DNA of 28,592 nt from a virus, in the IMG/VR virus record IMGVR_UViG_3300036832_000102, positions 1-28,592 of that record; one strand, written 5' to 3'. A program made the translations under genes and the position numbers. This document shows positions 351-27,561 of the stretch, one piece after another. The notes beneath the pieces were generated by a model that saw only the letters and a program-made list of their open reading frames with translations, made no database searches and was not told where the DNA came from. Each line of letters starts with the position of its first letter. Within the stretch, counting starts at the first letter, position 1.

Positions 351-384
351 GTAAAGAACCGCGCCACATTGCTATGGCGCGGTT
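351..384 (-). terminator. Hairpin terminator behind the 60-residue protein gene
   Basis: A perfect 10-bp stem, AACCGCGCCA (357-366) with TGGCGCGGTT (375-384), and an 8-base loop. Read leftward, the stem is followed by CTTTAC, a short weak T-stretch. It lies 28 bases beyond the stop codon of the leftward 60-residue gene. The flank on its upstream side (GGTTAGG..TAGGCT) is nearly the same as at the terminator at 1177-1213, supporting a shared gene-end role. Confidence 0.6.
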
Positions 385-411: not shown

Positions 412-594
412 CTATATGTGTTCGACGTTACGCACGTCTGCGCTGATGATGCGCTCGACTGCACCTGACAAGCTGATGCGGATAGTCTGCTGCTGCTTGC
501 CTGCATAGTGGCTCAGTACGTAGCCATACCACACGTGATCTCCGAGTGTGACGCACACGTGATCTTCGTGCTCGAATACTGTCGGCTCGTTCAT
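412..594 (-). CDS. Small hypothetical phage protein, 60 residues
   Basis: A leftward gene of unknown function. The ATG at 594-592 is chosen because AAGGA lies 7 bases upstream; an in-frame ATG nine codons earlier (621) has no ribosome binding site. The protein is compact, with an acidic N-terminus followed by alternating hydrophobic and polar residues from about residue 12 to the end (VCVTLGDHVWYGYV, then TIRISLSG and ending VRNVEHI). This pattern would fit a small SH3-like beta barrel, but that is inference only. It is served by a perfect consensus promoter at 732-760 with an untranslated leader of about 130 bases carrying two hairpins, and by a hairpin terminator at 357-384. Strong promoter and leftward orientation suggest an early gene acting on the host. 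A 97-codon frame overlapping it in another phase is a shadow. Confidence 0.7.
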   Translation of the reverse strand: MNEPTVFEHEDHVCVTLGDHVWYGYVLSHYAGKQQQTIRISLSGAVERIISADVRNVEHI

Positions 595-635: not shown

Positions 636-675
636 GTGTCTGCTATTGCACAGACACTTTCGCGCCTGCGGCGCG
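636..675. repeat. Two-hairpin repeat, copy 1
   Basis: Hairpin A: GTGTCTG (636-642) with CAGACAC (651-657), 7 bp, 8-base loop. After TTT follows hairpin B: CGCGCC (661-666), loop TGC, GGCGCG (670-675). Read leftward, this copy lies in the leader of the 60-residue gene, between its promoter and its ribosome binding site. Copy 2 at 915-955 has the same order and the same ACACTTT linker, with a base-pair swap in hairpin B. Confidence 0.65.
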
Positions 676-731
676 GCACTTCGTTAGGCTGACGGGCTTG
701 TGTTCTCTGTCCGTTCCTCATTGTTAGTAGT

Positions 732-760
732 ATTATAGCACATGTTAGTGGCTATGTCAA
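732..760 (-). promoter_or_regulatory. Perfect consensus sigma70-type promoter for the 60-residue gene
   Basis: Read leftward: TTGACA (plus-strand TGTCAA at 755-760), 17-base spacer, TATAAT (plus-strand ATTATA at 732-737). All twelve key bases match consensus. Transcription would start near 725, about 130 bases before the ATG at 594. Expected to be read by host RNA polymerase immediately after infection. Confidence 0.85.
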
Positions 761-914
761 GTTAACGTGCTGTTTCTGTGCGTGTTTATGCAATACAGTC
801 AATGACTTGCAGGCTGTATGTGTGTATGTGGTGCAGTACTGTGTGCGTGTGCACGTATGATGCAGTACTGTACATGGCTCGGGCATCGAACAGACACTGG
901 CAGGTGCAGTATCG

Positions 915-955
915 TGCATGGTAGGTCATGCAAACACTTTCGCGGCTGCGCCGCG
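915..955. repeat. Two-hairpin repeat, copy 2 with compensatory change
   Basis: Hairpin A: TGCATG (915-920) with CATGCA (927-932), 6 bp, 6-base loop. Linker AACACTTT. Hairpin B: CGCGGC (941-946), loop TGC, GCCGCG (950-955). Compared with copies 1 and 3, the fifth base of the left arm is G instead of C and its partner is C instead of G, so pairing is kept. Hairpin A differs completely in sequence from that of copy 1 but is also paired. Confidence 0.65.
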
Positions 956-1044: not shown

Positions 1045-1071
1045 CGCGCCGTGCATGTGAGCAGCGGCGCG
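1045..1071. repeat. 7-bp GC-rich inverted repeat
   Basis: CGCGCCG (1045-1051) pairs with CGGCGCG (1065-1071) across a 13-base loop. Read leftward it is followed by CTTTATTATG, a poor T-stretch, so it could be a weak leftward terminator. The arm sequence resembles hairpin B of the nearby repeats. Confidence 0.45.
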
Positions 1072-1113: not shown

Positions 1114-1169
1114 GTCTAGTCCAGATGGAGCAAGACTTTCGCGCCTGCGGCGCGGTTGGCTGGCTAGAC
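1114..1169. repeat. Repeat copy 3: triloop hairpin nested in a longer stem
   Basis: CGCGCC (1140-1145), loop TGC, GGCGCG (1149-1154), preceded by the ACTTT-type linker, matches hairpin B of copy 1 exactly. Here an outer stem replaces hairpin A: GTCTAG-T-CCAG (1114-1124) pairs with CTGG-CTAGAC (1160-1169), ten pairs with one bulged T. It lies just past the terminator of the 321-residue gene when read leftward. Confidence 0.55.
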
Positions 1170-1176
1170 GATAGGC

Positions 1177-1213
1177 AATAAAAAACCCCGCTGCCATTTC
1201 TGGCAACGGGGTT
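1177..1213 (-). terminator. Strong intrinsic terminator of the 321-residue gene
   Basis: Read leftward: AACCCCG, one G-T type pair, TGCCA, loop GAAA, TGGCA, CGGGGTT, then TTTTATT. A stem of about 13 pairs with a GNRA tetraloop and a T-run is a textbook rho-independent terminator, 18 bases beyond the stop codon at 1234-1232. Between stop and stem lies a run of GGTTA/GGCTA units (1211-1234 on the plus strand). Confidence 0.9.
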
Positions 1214-1231: not shown

Positions 1232-2197
1232 TTACTTGCTCGCCTTGGCTGGCGCTTCGGTTGCACGCGGCACATCGAAGCCCGGCGCGTTGCGGATCGC
1301 ATCCCATATCCGCATGAGTGTCGTGATAGCGTTCAAGTCACGCGGATCGAAGTCAGACACGTTCGGCACAGTGCCCGGCATCTGGTTCTTAGGATCGAGC
1401 ACGGCAATCATCGCTTCAGCGTGCACGCGGATGGTATCGCCGTTACCCTTGGCAGTAGCTGGCGCAGTCGTGCCAGTCGCGGCACCGTTCGCCGTCGTGC
1501 CTTCGGCTTGCGTGCCTTTCGTCACACGCGGTGCGGGCGGATTGTTCACGCTATTGAACTGCGCCACGCTGGCGAAGTACTTATCAAACGCGACCTTGCC
1601 GTCCTTAGTCGTCTGGAAGATGCGGCCCGTTCCGTTCAGCGGAATGAGTGCGTCCTTATCCAGCGGGATGGCAGTCGCCGCGTCGGCGTTCGCCTTGAGT
1701 AGCAGCATGACGGGCGGCACATTCCACATGCCAGTCTTCACGTCGAAGTTAGTCAACGGAACCTGCCGCGACGCCAGACCGATAGCGAACGTCATCGATC
1801 CGTTAAGCAGCGTGCGATGCTGCGCAATGGCGTCAAGCTCGTTGGTGTAGTCTGCCGTCACGACGGTAGGACGCTCCGAGGGCTTGGGCAGAAACTTCTC
1901 GATCATCGCTTTCATGTAGATAGCGCGCGTGTCCTTGCTGGTCAGCGCCGACGCGAGCGAACCCACCGAGTTAGAACCCTGCCCGGTACGCACGGTGTCA
2001 GCATGCACGATGATAGCAGCGGCCATGCGCTGTGTTGCACTGCCCTGCAAACGCTTGCCGCTGTCCCAATCCTTGAACGCTTGCGACGCAAGCGCCATAG
2101 GCTCGAAGCCAGCCAACTCCATTTCCTTAGCCGGAGTGATCGTGACACGCTCCGCAGTGGTGCGGGCAGCGGCAGTCTTTTGTGCGCGTGTAGCCAT
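1232..2197 (-). CDS. Hypothetical leftward phage protein, 321 residues
   Basis: Function not recognised. The ATG at 2197-2195 is preferred because GGGAG lies 9 bases upstream; extending the frame to 2254 would leave almost no leader after the predicted transcription start near 2256. The protein opens with a basic Ala/Thr-rich stretch (MATRAQKTAAARTT), followed by a mixed helical region with several aromatic residues, then a low-complexity Ala/Thr/Gly linker at about residues 226-255 and a C-terminal segment from about 257 with motifs such as HAEAMIAVLDP and DFDPRDLNAITTLMRIWDAI. No signal peptide or membrane segment is visible. It is a single-gene unit with its own near-consensus promoter and strong terminator, as expected for an early or constantly expressed gene. 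A DNA-binding or host-takeover role is possible but not shown. Codon use (GCG, GGC, ACG) differs from the GGT/GCA/ACA-rich late genes. Confidence 0.8.
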   Translation of the reverse strand: MATRAQKTAAARTTAERVTITPAKEMELAGFEPMALASQAFKDWDSGKRLQGSATQRMAAAIIVHADTVRTGQGSNSVGSLASALTSKDTRAIYMKAMIEKFLPKPSERPTVVTADYTNELDAIAQHRTLLNGSMTFAIGLASRQVPLTNFDVKTGMWNVPPVMLLLKANADAATAIPLDKDALIPLNGTGRIFQTTKDGKVAFDKYFASVAQFNSVNNPPAPRVTKGTQAEGTTANGAATGTTAPATAKGNGDTIRVHAEAMIAVLDPKNQMPGTVPNVSDFDPRDLNAITTLMRIWDAIRNAPGFDVPRATEAPAKASK

Positions 2198-5701: not shown

Positions 5702-6136
5702 ATGCCGATGCAAGCGGTAGCATGGGAAGAGTATTACGTTCCAGAGCCTAACTCTGGATGTTGGTTGTGGGACAGGAGAACTGATTGGGATGGTTATGGG
5801 ATAATAAAGCGGAATAGGACATCACACCGAGCACACAGACTTATGTGGACACAGACACATGGACCAATCCCTGAAGGGACACTCGTTTGTCATACTTGTG
5901 ATATTCCTTCCTGTGTGAATCCAGACCACTTATTCCTTGGCACGTACAAAGAAAACTCAGAAGACATGGTACGCAAAGGACGTAAGCTGCGTCCTTTCGA
6001 TGTATATAGTCATTGTGTTAATGGACACGAACTGACCGATGACAATATATACATTGTGCCCCGCACAGGTAAAAGGCAGTGCCGTCTGTGTCAATATGAA
6101 GTCAATCAACGACGCTGGGAAGCAGGATTGCGGTAG
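5702..6136 (+). CDS. Free-standing HNH endonuclease, 144 residues
   Basis: A mobile homing-type endonuclease. The HNH core is clear: GCWLW at about 19-23, DGYG at 30-33, AHRLMW at 44-49, then CHTCD at 63-67 and [10 protein letters not shown] at 71-80, giving H64, N73 and H76 as the likely catalytic and metal-binding set with cysteines 63, 66 and 71 for zinc. A second zinc-binding site follows: C105, H109, C127, C130 (CVNGHEL and CRLC). It has its own ribosome binding site (GGAG, 7 bases before ATG) and breaks the stop-start overlap pattern of its neighbours. Arginine is often encoded by AGA/AGG here, unlike the CGT/CGC-rich genes around it, as expected for an inserted gene. It would cut DNA of related phages lacking it, near the terminase gene. 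Confidence 0.9.
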
Positions 6137-22406: not shown

Positions 22407-23455
22407 TGGCAACACAGAATGCATACGGCACGTTCAGCCCTGCTGCACTACAACCGTATCCCATTGAGACTGAGCTAGAGAAGCAAGCGTATGGTGGCGA
22501 CACTGCGCAGTCACAGACACAGCTTGACCAGTACTGGCTAGAGCGGCAAGCACACGAGAACCTGTATGGTCAGGAACTTGACGCGCAGCACCAGCAAGCG
22601 AGGAACCAGCTTGCTGCTACAATGTATGAGCAGAACATCAAAGGCTTGACAGAGCTAGGCAAGATGCCTGGTGGATTGCAGATTGCACAATCGTCACCAT
22701 ACTACCAAGGCATTCTCGGTGGTGCATCGCCTGATATTGTTGGCAACGTGATTGCACAGCAACAGAAGGCACAGGACGCAACCAATCTAGAGCATGCAGG
22801 CTCAGGTGTTAACTCGTTGACCACTGCTGGCTTCCAACCTGACCAGCAGTATGTCACCAACTTGACTGGTGCACCGACAATCAAGACAGCACCAGTGCCG
22901 ATACAGGTAGCGAATATCAATGCTGCATCACGTGTAGCAGCAGCTAACGCACGTGCTGGTGCAGCTAATCAGCCGTCTGTATCACTACAAGTAGCTCCCA
23001 TCCCAGGACTTGGGACACCGACACTGAACGTTCCAGGTAAATTGAACATGGGTGCTGGTGACGTACAGAAGTTCTTGAGTGATCGTGGATACATACAACC
23101 ACAAGTTCAGCTTACCCCACCAAGCCAGACAGGTGGTATGCCACCACCTACTGCTGTGCCTACGACATCGACTGGTGCAGTTGGTACACGTCTGCCTCCT
23201 GCTAAGACAGAGACAGCACCACCGACTGTAGCCACGTCAGGTCCGGCACCTGCTGCACAGGCAGCCACAGGCAATAATGCAGCAGCGATGACAGGTGTGC
23301 GTAACTGGATAGAGACGAACAAAGCGCAGATGCCACCAGCAGCGTATGCTGACATCACTGGTGCATACTCACAGAACGGAGGCAATCCGAAGATCATCGT
23401 TGGACCAGATGGCAAACCAGCTATTATTGGTAAGAGCGGCAAGGCTTATAGATGA
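22406..23455 (+). CDS. Internal virion / ejection protein C, 349 residues
   Basis: Not recognised individually. The ATG at 22406 overlaps the previous TAA; an upstream in-frame GTG at 22397 is less likely. The N-terminal part is a long polar helix (ETELEKQAYGGDTAQSQTQ, then YWLERQAHENLYGQELDAQ, about 15-70), the middle is Ala/Asn-rich, and the C-terminal third is Pro/Thr/Ala-rich linker (about 233-290) ending in a small folded-looking piece (NPKIIVGPDGKPAIIGKSG). It sits between ejection protein B and the 1369-residue protein and is coupled to both. Core-protein role inferred from context and composition. Confidence 0.6.
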   Translation: MATQNAYGTFSPAALQPYPIETELEKQAYGGDTAQSQTQLDQYWLERQAHENLYGQELDAQHQQARNQLAATMYEQNIKGLTELGKMPGGLQIAQSSPYYQGILGGASPDIVGNVIAQQQKAQDATNLEHAGSGVNSLTTAGFQPDQQYVTNLTGAPTIKTAPVPIQVANINAASRVAAANARAGAANQPSVSLQVAPIPGLGTPTLNVPGKLNMGAGDVQKFLSDRGYIQPQVQLTPPSQTGGMPPPTAVPTTSTGAVGTRLPPAKTETAPPTVATSGPAPAAQAATGNNAAAMTGVRNWIETNKAQMPPAAYADITGAYSQNGGNPKIIVGPDGKPAIIGKSGKAYR

Positions 23456-26400
23456 GTTGGCTCGACGCCTTCTATCCAGGCAACATACAAGACATACCGG
23501 CGCAGCTACCGCCCGGTCCACCTAAGCCGGGTGAGACAGGGTATGATGAATACCAGCGTCTTGAAGCACGCCTGCCGCTTGCTCTCACTAGTCTATTGCC
23601 TGGCGCAGTTGCACAGGTCATGCCACTTGGTAAGACACCAGAAGGTGACATAGAGCCAACTGTCCCTGGTGTAGTGTCGTCGATCTACGGTGGTGTTGGC
23701 AGCGGTGTGCCATGGGCAATCAACAAGGTTGCAGGTGCACTCGGTTATCAGACTAACCTGCCATCTGCTCCTGGCACTGAAGAGATGCAGCGTCAGTATG
23801 AAGATACGAGCAGACTTGCTAAGGACTTAATCCCAACGAATAAGCTAGCTGAGAACGAGACAGAACAGCGGATGCATGACTATGCATTCAGTGCTGGTGG
23901 CATGTATGTGCCAGGACTGTCCTCTGTGCTCGCTGGCTTACCGTCGGTGATTGCCAAGCCAGTCAGTTGGGTTGCACCGACGGCTGAGCACTTCTTGCCT
24001 AATGCACAGGTACAGGCGTTTGCATCTGGTGCAACATCTGCATACCAGAAAGACCATCCTGACGTTACAACTGTTCCAGGCTTAGGTGATGCACTGTCGT
24101 CTGCTGTGCAGCCTGACACTACGACACCAACACAAGGGGCAACAACACAGCCACACCCTGCAACACTAGACCAGCCTGCAACACCAGCAACAGTGCCAAG
24201 CGATGTTGGCACACAGCCACCGACATCAATCGGTAGTGCACTTGACAGGATACTGAGTGGGCAAGCACCGCAACAGCCTGCACCTACGTTCAGTCAGTTA
24301 GGCGAGAGCGCAGGCACAGTTGGTGAAGTAGCTGCGGCAGGTGGTGCAGCTATACTTGGCATCATTGCTGGTAAGCGCATGCTTGGCATTGGTCAGGAGA
24401 TGACAGCCAATGCACGTGCAGCGCGTCTTGCTGATCCTGCGTATGCACAGAAAGCTGCTGACTTCCAAGCTGCACAGGTTGCTGCACAGGGATCACAGAT
24501 TTCTGATCCAGTGCTAGGCAACAAAGTACAGGCACCACTGCCGACAGATGGCGCAGTGCACACTGCTGCTACGGCAGCAAAGACGAACGTGCTCGATGCA
24601 AATGCACAGATGGAAGACTTGATTAAGATGACTGCGCAGAGCCCACAAGCGGGTGATAAGCTGCGTAGTGAGTACGGCATGATTATGAACGATGCTGCAT
24701 GGCAGAACAAGCTACGTGCGTTCCTGTCCACTGGTGTTGACTACGCTACCAAGCTGGTGATGCCAGCACCGAAGCGTCTGTTCGATGACATAGGACGTGC
24801 AACTGAGGCACAACAGAAAGCACTCAATGATGTGCTCTATGCCAAGGACGCAATGGATGACCGGCTCTACATGCAGCAGCAAGGGATCACGCCTGCACGT
24901 CGCAGCTTCCCGAACCAGTCTGACCAAGACCTTGCACGCATAATCGTTGACGGGCAGCGTGATCCACTGGTTGCTAATCTCGCTACTCGGTTCAACACTG
25001 TCACACAGCGCATGGTGGACATGGGTGAAGCGCGTGGCTACTTCACACCCACTGAGGCATCGTTCCTGCGTACCACGCATCCTAACTACGTGCCGACTGT
25101 GGATGCGACAGGCAACATCATGAACGTGCTAGAGGCACGTAACTACGCACCGAACGCTGGCCTTAATCAGGTCAATTCATTGGCGTGGCAATCATTGTCA
25201 CAGTATGTGGAGCGCATCTCTCACCAGTTCGAGTTGAACACACTACGCTCGAACATGCTCGATCACTTCGAGACGTTCAACGCGAACAACCCTGGCGCTG
25301 CACCACTCGTTGAGCGTGTGCGGACAGGTGGGCCACAGCAGACGTTCGGTGGTGTGAATGTGTCGGCTGCAACACCGGGCATGGAGCGCACAATCACAGT
25401 GCGTAGACCAACTGGTGTGCAGTACTACAAGGTCAATAACCACGATCTGTATGATGTGCTGACTGGTGAGAACGCAAACAAGATGCGAACGATGTTCGAC
25501 GCTGCGACCACAGCACGTCGGCTCGTGTCGAGTGGCACCACTGGCTTGATGTCTACGCTGAGTCTACGTGCATTCCCGATTACGAACCTTATGCGTACTG
25601 CGTTCCAGCTACCGATCAACCGACCGAAGGGCTACGTCGGTGGCCTGATGGACTACGGTGCGCAGAAGCTCAGTGGTGGACGCTTTGGCTATCGGTTGCC
25701 TGATCCAACCAACATCCCTGGTGCAGCATATAGCATAGGCCGTGGTGCGTTCGATGATGTAGCACACAAGCTGGCTAACCTGTTCGACAAAGAGAACACA
25801 GGTGTATCGTCACAGATTGTGAAGAGCATCATCACGCCACAGCGTATGGACCTAATCAACAAGGCACTGAAAGACTACTACCTCGGCACGACCACGTATC
25901 AGAAGCTCGCTGAGGGTGTCGGTGCAAGCAGCGTTCCGTATCGACTGCGGACGCCTGCGTATGGCAGCGGTGACCACTTTGTGCGTTCCATGTCTGGTCA
26001 GTTGTCACCATCGCTGTTCCTCAATGGTGGTAAGCTAGGCACGATCAAGCCAGCTACGATCAGGCTGATGGATGCAGCCAACAAGATATTCACTAGCATC
26101 AGTGATGGCTCACATGACTACTTCTACAGGCTGAACAACTTTGCAGGTGGACATGAGCCTGCATCGTTGGCCTACGAGACACGTGCAATCGTTGGTGATC
26201 CTGGCGTGCATGGTGCTGGCAAGGCTGTAACAGGTCTGCGGTCGTATGTGCCATACGCTAACGTGTCGGCACAAGGCGTGACACGCTTCGGTCGTGCACT
26301 CAAGGACACACCTGTTGGCACGTCAGCAGGGCTCGTTGGTGGACTTGGCAGTCTAGCACTGCTGTCGATCTACACTGCCATGCAGCATCCTGAGACACTC

Positions 26401-27561
26401 AACTATTTGCAGAACCAAGTTCCGTCACAAGGCTCGGCTGCGAACGCATACTTGTTCAATGGACCGAACCCAGCTACGGCTGCGATGTTCTCACTGCCAC
26501 AGGAGTTGCGTCCGTTCTATCCGATGATGATGGACATAATCAGCAAGGCAATCAACCTAGATGCAGCACAGCATGACGCTGGTGTGCATGACAGCATCAC
26601 GTCGTTCTTGAAGGACTGGTTCGCTGAGCACATCGAGAATCAGACATGGCAGAGCACAATGCATGGTGTATCTGACGCTGCTGCAATCGTCGATGTGCCG
26701 TCTGTAGCGAACGCTGTGATTGCACCAATCACTGGCAAGTCAATACGCATTGATCCTGCACGACTGTATGGTGATTGGAGCACAGGCTCTGGTCCGCTCG
26801 GCAATCTGTCATTCAGTTCGTTTGCAATGCCAACTGGCACTGATGCACCACTACCGAACCAGTCACCTGGTGACAACTTCTTAGATGCAATGGACGGTAA
26901 GAAGTGGAGCGTGCTGCTATCTAACGTGTTTGGCATGGCAAGCAGTGTGCTAGACATGCCGTTCCAATACAGCAAGTACTATCACCAGACAGGTGATGCA
27001 TATGCAGCGTTGGGGCAAGTAGGCAAGGACTGGCTACAGGATGCAATGGACGCCAACCCAATGCTCAATCACTTGCTGTGGGAGAACCAAGTTAGATCGA
27101 GCGTGCGACCACCGATCGTAGAGAGTGTGTCACGCCAGCTAGAGATGATGAAGCTGACAGCAGGCAGCAGACAGGCTGAGCGTTACGAAGGCACGACTGG
27201 TGGACGCAACCCACTGCCTGTGCCGATGAGCGGTGGTGCAGATGACAAGCGTATACCTACTGATCCGACCATGCGACAGATGTACTTCGATACAGCTAAT
27301 GAGTACCAGTTCATACAGTCAAACGTGATGGGTGACATACAGAACCTACGTAAGCAGATGGCAGCAGTGCAGGATCATGTCGGTGACATCACTGAGAAGC
27401 GTGAGTTCCACAACGCTGGTGCACGATTGATTGCTGACAAGTATGCTTACATACAGGCACGGATCGAAGACCTGAACGCTGCACTGAGTAAGCAAGTTGG
27501 GCGACATGTAGACGTGGCACACATCAACTGGAAGCAAGGGCCGGATCAGTTCAGCGAGTGA
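23452..27561 (+). CDS. Very large internal virion protein, 1369 residues, LPD38-like region
   Basis: The biggest protein of the window and the last late gene. The N-terminal about 270 residues mix Pro/Gly-rich and helical parts with a Thr/Pro/Gln linker (about 220-260). A hydrophobic segment lies near 285-310 (AAAGGAAILGIIAGKRMLG) and another near 955-980 (SAGLVGGLGSLALLSIYTAM). Between them, at about 655-745, YYKVNNHDLYDVLTG and VSSGTTGLMSTLSLRAFPITN resemble the LPD38-type domain of large polyvalent phage proteins that are injected into the cell. The C-terminus is helical and charged. No transglycosylase or RNA polymerase motif was recognised. Start by ATGA overlap with AAGG 7 bases upstream. 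It probably forms part of the ejected core; its end overlaps the convergent leftward gene by 11 bases. Confidence 0.7.
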   Translation: MSWLDAFYPGNIQDIPAQLPPGPPKPGETGYDEYQRLEARLPLALTSLLPGAVAQVMPLGKTPEGDIEPTVPGVVSSIYGGVGSGVPWAINKVAGALGYQTNLPSAPGTEEMQRQYEDTSRLAKDLIPTNKLAENETEQRMHDYAFSAGGMYVPGLSSVLAGLPSVIAKPVSWVAPTAEHFLPNAQVQAFASGATSAYQKDHPDVTTVPGLGDALSSAVQPDTTTPTQGATTQPHPATLDQPATPATVPSDVGTQPPTSIGSALDRILSGQAPQQPAPTFSQLGESAGTVGEVAAAGGAAILGIIAGKRMLGIGQEMTANARAARLADPAYAQKAADFQAAQVAAQGSQISDPVLGNKVQAPLPTDGAVHTAATAAKTNVLDANAQMEDLIKMTAQSPQAGDKLRSEYGMIMNDAAWQNKLRAFLSTGVDYATKLVMPAPKRLFDDIGRATEAQQKALNDVLYAKDAMDDRLYMQQQGITPARRSFPNQSDQDLARIIVDGQRDPLVANLATRFNTVTQRMVDMGEARGYFTPTEASFLRTTHPNYVPTVDATGNIMNVLEARNYAPNAGLNQVNSLAWQSLSQYVERISHQFELNTLRSNMLDHFETFNANNPGAAPLVERVRTGGPQQTFGGVNVSAATPGMERTITVRRPTGVQYYKVNNHDLYDVLTGENANKMRTMFDAATTARRLVSSGTTGLMSTLSLRAFPITNLMRTAFQLPINRPKGYVGGLMDYGAQKLSGGRFGYRLPDPTNIPGAAYSIGRGAFDDVAHKLANLFDKENTGVSSQIVKSIITPQRMDLINKALKDYYLGTTTYQKLAEGVGASSVPYRLRTPAYGSGDHFVRSMSGQLSPSLFLNGGKLGTIKPATIRLMDAANKIFTSISDGSHDYFYRLNNFAGGHEPASLAYETRAIVGDPGVHGAGKAVTGLRSYVPYANVSAQGVTRFGRALKDTPVGTSAGLVGGLGSLALLSIYTAMQHPETLNYLQNQVPSQGSAANAYLFNGPNPATAAMFSLPQELRPFYPMMMDIISKAINLDAAQHDAGVHDSITSFLKDWFAEHIENQTWQSTMHGVSDAAAIVDVPSVANAVIAPITGKSIRIDPARLYGDWSTGSGPLGNLSFSSFAMPTGTDAPLPNQSPGDNFLDAMDGKKWSVLLSNVFGMASSVLDMPFQYSKYYHQTGDAYAALGQVGKDWLQDAMDANPMLNHLLWENQVRSSVRPPIVESVSRQLEMMKLTAGSRQAERYEGTTGGRNPLPVPMSGGADDKRIPTDPTMRQMYFDTANEYQFIQSNVMGDIQNLRKQMAAVQDHVGDITEKREFHNAGARLIADKYAYIQARIEDLNAALSKQVGRHVDVAHINWKQGPDQFSE

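Follow-up and report, generated by a model that had tools for sequence, protein, structure and literature searches.

The question raised by this locus is what a short hairpin, repeated in the non-coding DNA among early phage genes, contributes to the phage. The window, that is, the whole stretch of DNA analysed, is a 28.6-kb virus record (28,592 nucleotides) whose plus strand encodes a P22-like portal and a terminase and whose minus strand carries the early genes. Its clade is a little-studied group of soil phages: a nucleotide search of 50,697 deposited phage records gave no match to the clade, and TerL had no relative among GTDB genomes, so that no host was assigned. The initial annotation had described an element at 636-675 and 915-955 in which a hairpin A and a hairpin B are joined by an ACACTTT linker. 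The features are listed below in leftward order, which runs from the first early gene through its terminator, copy 3 of hairpin B, the hairpin at 1071-1045 and copy 2 to the promoter, copy 1, the gene at 594-412 and the terminator-like hairpin behind it.

1232..2197, minus strand: first early gene, ~321 aa, with homologues at the same position in relatives
1184..1213, minus strand: intrinsic terminator of the first early gene, with a GAAA tetraloop and a T-run
1140..1154, minus strand: hairpin B copy 3, CGCGCC-GCA-GGCGCG then AAAGTCT, 31 nt past the T-run of that terminator
1045..1071, minus strand: terminator-like hairpin with CTTTATTAT after it, between copies 3 and 2; found by eye, missed by the scanner
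941..955, minus strand: hairpin B copy 2, CGCGGC-GCA-GCCGCG then AAAGTGT; differs from copies 1 and 3 by one flipped stem pair
915..932, minus strand: hairpin A of copy 2, 6 bp, judged outside the element
732..760, minus strand: perfect sigma70 promoter, TTGACA-17-TATAAT, with an extended -10
661..675, minus strand: hairpin B copy 1, CGCGCC-GCA-GGCGCG then AAAGTGT, in the leader of the gene at 594-412
636..657, minus strand: hairpin A of copy 1, 7 bp, judged outside the element
412..594, minus strand: small early gene, 60 aa, 3' of hairpin B copy 1
351..384, minus strand: terminator-like hairpin plus TTCTTT, 3' of the gene at 594-412; found by eye

The motif CGCGSCGCAGSCGCGAAAGT has three matches in the window, all on the minus strand, and none in 100 shuffles; the third match (1154-1135) was absent from the initial annotation. 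With the hairpin class defined as C(GNA)G with at least 6 bp and at least 5 G/C per arm, the window holds three members, against a total of one across 20 whole-window shuffles (~0.05 expected). The one-pair flip with retained pairing, which had been pointed out earlier, is borne out between copies 1/3 and copy 2, and the accompanying remark on a GNA-type triloop was apt. Hairpin B and the ACACTTT linker do recur at both described sites, whereas hairpin A drops out of the shared architecture: its pairing is near chance at copies 1 and 2 (7 bp, shuffle p 0.04, and 6 bp, p 0.07) and missing at copy 3, where the best stem is 3 bp (p 0.96). Hairpin A is thus no shared part, and we rejected it as a component of the element. 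Copies 1 and 2 have ~25 bp of upstream sequence in common (ACACAAGCCC...GCCT(A/G)ACGA) and therefore look duplicated. Copy 1 does lie in a leader, as proposed, starting 56 nt past the -10 of the perfect promoter at 760-732.

An Rfam search of the window gave no match at gathering score, and neither in the window nor in the flanks of the relatives is there a T-run 3' of hairpin B on the early strand. The scanner returned one plus-strand terminator prediction at 940-956, with a broken T-run. Exact and degenerate scans of IMG/VR found the 20-nt motif of the window nowhere else, the degenerate matches that were checked being unrelated contigs. As a query, the first early protein matched only its own contig, and its alignment was too diverse for use as a search query. 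Relatives were instead gathered by terminase-anchored IMG/VR searches, which supplied the best 80 of 142-143 related stretches per search; the scan set, 350 kb in all, held 74 non-redundant regions lying upstream of terminase. These were scanned for the hairpin architecture rather than with a covariance model, because a 15-nt hairpin with a variable stem is too short for specificity.

Among the 74 regions, early-strand counts of GC-rich triloop hairpins with 6 bp or more are at chance level (25 vs 20.4 in shuffles). Hairpins with a GNA loop, on the other hand, number 13 against 0.85, a roughly 15-fold excess (at most 3 in any of 20 shuffle sets), while the mirror class TNC is found twice against 1.0 in shuffles. 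The closing pair is C-G in 13/13 of these early-strand GNA hairpins, two of which lie outside early gaps, one between late genes (L078 669) and one within an ORF (L209 1774). In non-coding DNA, C(GNA)G hairpins with stems of 6 bp or more occur 11 times on the early strand (L078 669 included) and never on the late strand, and none stands behind 683 stops of unrelated control viral contigs. Stem sequence varies between phages, with pairing and loop class kept. Of 25 cells changed on both sides, 93% are paired, a count that is partly circular since the scan required pairing; it characterises the hairpin set and is no proof of selection on its own. The weight is carried by the loop and strand rules, neither of which was a criterion in the GNA enrichment scan. 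Selection on structure, claimed initially for both hairpins, is supported for hairpin B, where C(GNA)G is enriched on one strand over variable stems; hairpin A as a component of the element is not supported. Judged from the sequences compared, hairpin B is a shape-conserved, sequence-variable element with a GC-rich stem of 5-7 bp and a C(GNA)G triloop, on the sense strand of early gaps in part of the clade.

Its usual site is 20-40 nt past the terminator of the first early gene. Nine relatives or copies have the hairpin shortly past a terminator, either that of the first early gene or that of an adjoining small gene (window copy 3, L018, L027, L029, L047, L050, L063, L026 and L209); among them, L063 has a GCGA tetraloop, and L026 and L209 have 5-bp stems. 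Elsewhere the hairpin follows a stop codon almost directly, by 5 nt at L029 113, 1 nt at L209 438 and 2 nt at L209 29. Two hairpins are in leaders, window copy 1 and L209 2857, and only for these does a sigma70 promoter lie no more than 300 nt upstream. The initial suggestion of a leader regulator is thus apt for copy 1 in the window, but most family members stand behind a terminator or a stop codon. At the post-terminator site, the hairpin is absent from L013, L019, L065, L073 and G006.

Several other features of this gap recur in the clade. A box of the form GYCTRC lies 3' of the terminator T-run (window 1213-1160, same site in most relatives), and CCTA repeats lie 5' of the terminator in most relatives; both are also present in relatives without hairpin B. 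In L018, L027, L063, L073 and L209, the contig ends ~20-180 nt from the hairpin site or from where the first early gene ends; perhaps the gap is variable and breaks assembly. The palindrome CAGTACTG is repeated at 834, 863 and 2381 of the window (three with GCAGTACTG), in early non-coding DNA, and is a possible operator. Further along, a small ORF at 5702-6136, just upstream of the terminase gene, is HNH endonuclease-like by sequence motif; one unrelated contig has a relative as well.

Of sigma70 promoters with at least 11/12 matches, the early strand has 27 and the late strand none, which points to the host RNA polymerase for the early genes. The clade's early promoters come close to a perfect sigma70 promoter and have a recurring spacer; the one at 760-732 in the window and L013 1904 are one base apart. 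Early leaders are generally structured (mean z -1.7, n = 26 leaders). Six of the early-strand leaders (L013 4149, L027 1421, L029 473, L033 1904, L039 4548, L209 4702) start with a hairpin ~7 nt past the -10, at or adjoining the expected +1; these hairpins mostly have 8-9 bp, a five-base loop, variable sequence and G-U pairs, and look like a covarying 5'-terminal RNA hairpin. Among the leaders, L209 2900-2800 folds most strongly (z -6); it lies behind a perfect promoter and has several tandem hairpins, most of them with a GTA loop and including a 10-bp C(GTA)G. An attenuation switch via the arm words GGCGCG/CGCGCC in common with terminators was not seen by eye in relatives and was dropped.

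As to a phage polymerase, a Pfam RNA_pol profile search gave no match anywhere, its controls likewise giving none, and PHROGs, run on part of the early genes, found a DNA polymerase and no RNA polymerase. A conserved 1369-aa virion-type protein (23452-27561) is encoded at the end of the late genes, a position occupied in N4 by the virion polymerase. The 1369-aa protein has no family, profile or structural match, its predicted model is poor, and its alignment holds no invariant Lys or Tyr. We set this protein aside as a polymerase candidate, the missing matches and poor model being weak negative evidence.

That hairpin B might act as an N4-type promoter, read by a virion RNA polymerase, as had been raised initially, is suggested by the tandem arrangement of three C(GNA)G hairpins among the early genes, each of which follows the extrusion rule. 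In N4, however, an early promoter has its hairpin on the template strand and requires three bases, a purine at -11, a G at -8 and a C at +1 (PMC4496689). Of the window copies, 3/3 have C at -11, the loop centre; copies 1 and 3 have C at -8, and copies 1 and 2 lack C at +1. The strand differs as well: the GNA loops here lie on the coding rather than the template strand of the early genes. With sigma70 promoters confined to the early strand and no polymerase found in a search that was incomplete, such a promoter is highly improbable. A better, though still minor, chance falls to the early strand folding as C(GNA)G when single-stranded, through supercoil extrusion, in a transcription bubble or during replication, and being bound by a phage or host factor; candidates would be a NusG/RfaH-like elongation factor on the non-template strand, SSB, primase or a so far unseen polymerase. 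The C-G closing pair and the 5' G and 3' A of the loop are what N4 DNA hairpins need for extrusion and stability (PMC4496689), and are present in 14/14 aligned hairpins; the ops site of RfaH likewise forms a hairpin in non-template DNA, with a C:G pair closing its G..A loop (PMC5995543). Most copies lie past terminators, and they have GNA triloops, whereas the terminators of the same phages mostly have GNRA tetraloops. A cumulative GC skew minimum lies near the hairpin region in some relatives, as divergent transcription also predicts. Against this stand the lack of any identified binding factor or polymerase and a 6-7 bp stem that is too large for a transcription bubble of 10-11 nt. The DNA energy parameters used hold no GNA bonus, and GNA is indistinguishable from other triloops in DNA and RNA models alike, so the special stability of GNA loops in DNA rests on the literature. 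The further step, in which C(GNA)G DNA hairpins on the early coding strand, exposed as non-template or extruded, would recruit a factor that sets early transcription or replication, seems unlikely; if true, it would be an N4-like use of DNA hairpins on the opposite strand and without an N4-like polymerase.

Positions behind stop codons and terminators would also fit a terminator or pause hairpin devoid of a U-tract, or a second hairpin serving as backup to the preceding terminator. We consider this rather improbable, as no T-run lies 3' of hairpin B on either strand, copy 1 stands between a perfect promoter and its gene, and at L209 438 the next early gene is close by with no promoter visible. 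There, the next ORF opens ~60 nt downstream and no sigma70-like -10 is seen by eye, so RNA should run through the hairpin. Pairing in a hairpin can also be restored by template switching, with no selection at work, and hairpin B could be a functionless repeat-like or mutation-made palindrome, spread by duplication or with its pairing kept by template switching. The common upstream sequence of copies 1 and 2 fits such an origin; it leaves the loop and strand rules unexplained, however, and by eye the flanks carry no conserved REP-type tetranucleotide, which makes it about as improbable as the U-tract-less terminator.

The strand bias speaks for the sense strand as the acting one, whether in RNA or as single-stranded DNA; RNA would be expected to obey a strand rule, which a symmetric cruciform or a dyad operator would not. 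Our preferred reading, held tentatively and at somewhat less than even odds, is that hairpin B may be a boundary or stability element of early RNA, neither a promoter nor a U-tract terminator. It would fold within early RNA in a leader, between cistrons or in terminator read-through, and the folded hairpin would then form a mechanical boundary, protecting or insulating the message next to it. The GNA enrichment, the strand bias, the intercistronic and leader positions and the structured early leaders lend this RNA reading its tentative preference, and we hold it above a strand-specific role in DNA. Against it, most copies lie past an efficient-looking terminator, where little RNA is expected, and in several relatives the corresponding site has no such hairpin. 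Terminators in these phages mostly use GNRA tetraloops, the better RNA loop (-11.6 vs -9.5 kcal/mol for a triloop), whereas hairpin B has triloops. G-T pairs in near-perfect stems number 0, too few stems to weigh RNA against DNA.

Hairpin B shares parts of several known descriptions and, by the tests made, is a member of none, be it N4, PeSL, ops, boxB, U-tract terminators or REP. REP and intercistronic stabiliser hairpins are GC-rich, lie between genes or after stop codons and are not terminators. Hairpin B is likewise GC-rich, intergenic or post-stop and no terminator, but by eye it has no REP consensus or adjoining tetranucleotide, and it keeps a strict GNA loop and a strand bias. The boxB of the lambda nut site is a short early-leader hairpin, preceded by a boxA, with a purine-rich G..A loop of five bases of the GNRNA type; the loop of hairpin B has three, and it lies mostly behind, not before, terminators. 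The PeSL (promoter early stem-loop) is a composite cassette of early promoter and stem-loop that is shuffled between genomes. The PeSLs of T4-type phages (mentioned in PMC4503421, which cites the work defining them) resemble hairpin B in that stem-loops and early promoters lie in early gene gaps, and differ in that hairpin B has a strict loop rule and most of its copies have no adjoining promoter. With N4 P1-P3 (Schitoviridae), it shares tandem short hairpins in the early region, the C-G closing pair and the G..A triloop that determines DNA extrusion (PMC4496689); unlike these promoters, it lacks the contacts at -11, -8 and mostly +1, lies on the coding strand and goes with sigma70 early promoters and no polymerase found. 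The resemblance to RfaH ops, a consensus pause site, extends to a flipped pair, which partly restores ops function (PMC5995543), but in ops a single pair is physiologically relevant and the loop has four bases, where hairpin B has 5-7 pairs and a three-base loop, and no RfaH-like protein was identified here. If the loop rule acts in DNA, hairpin recognition would be extended beyond phage N4 and RfaH; if it acts in RNA, it would show how these phages keep apart the early messages that host polymerase makes. Next to these systems, hairpin B offers a testable non-coding element that is conserved in shape, loop class and strand rather than in stem sequence.
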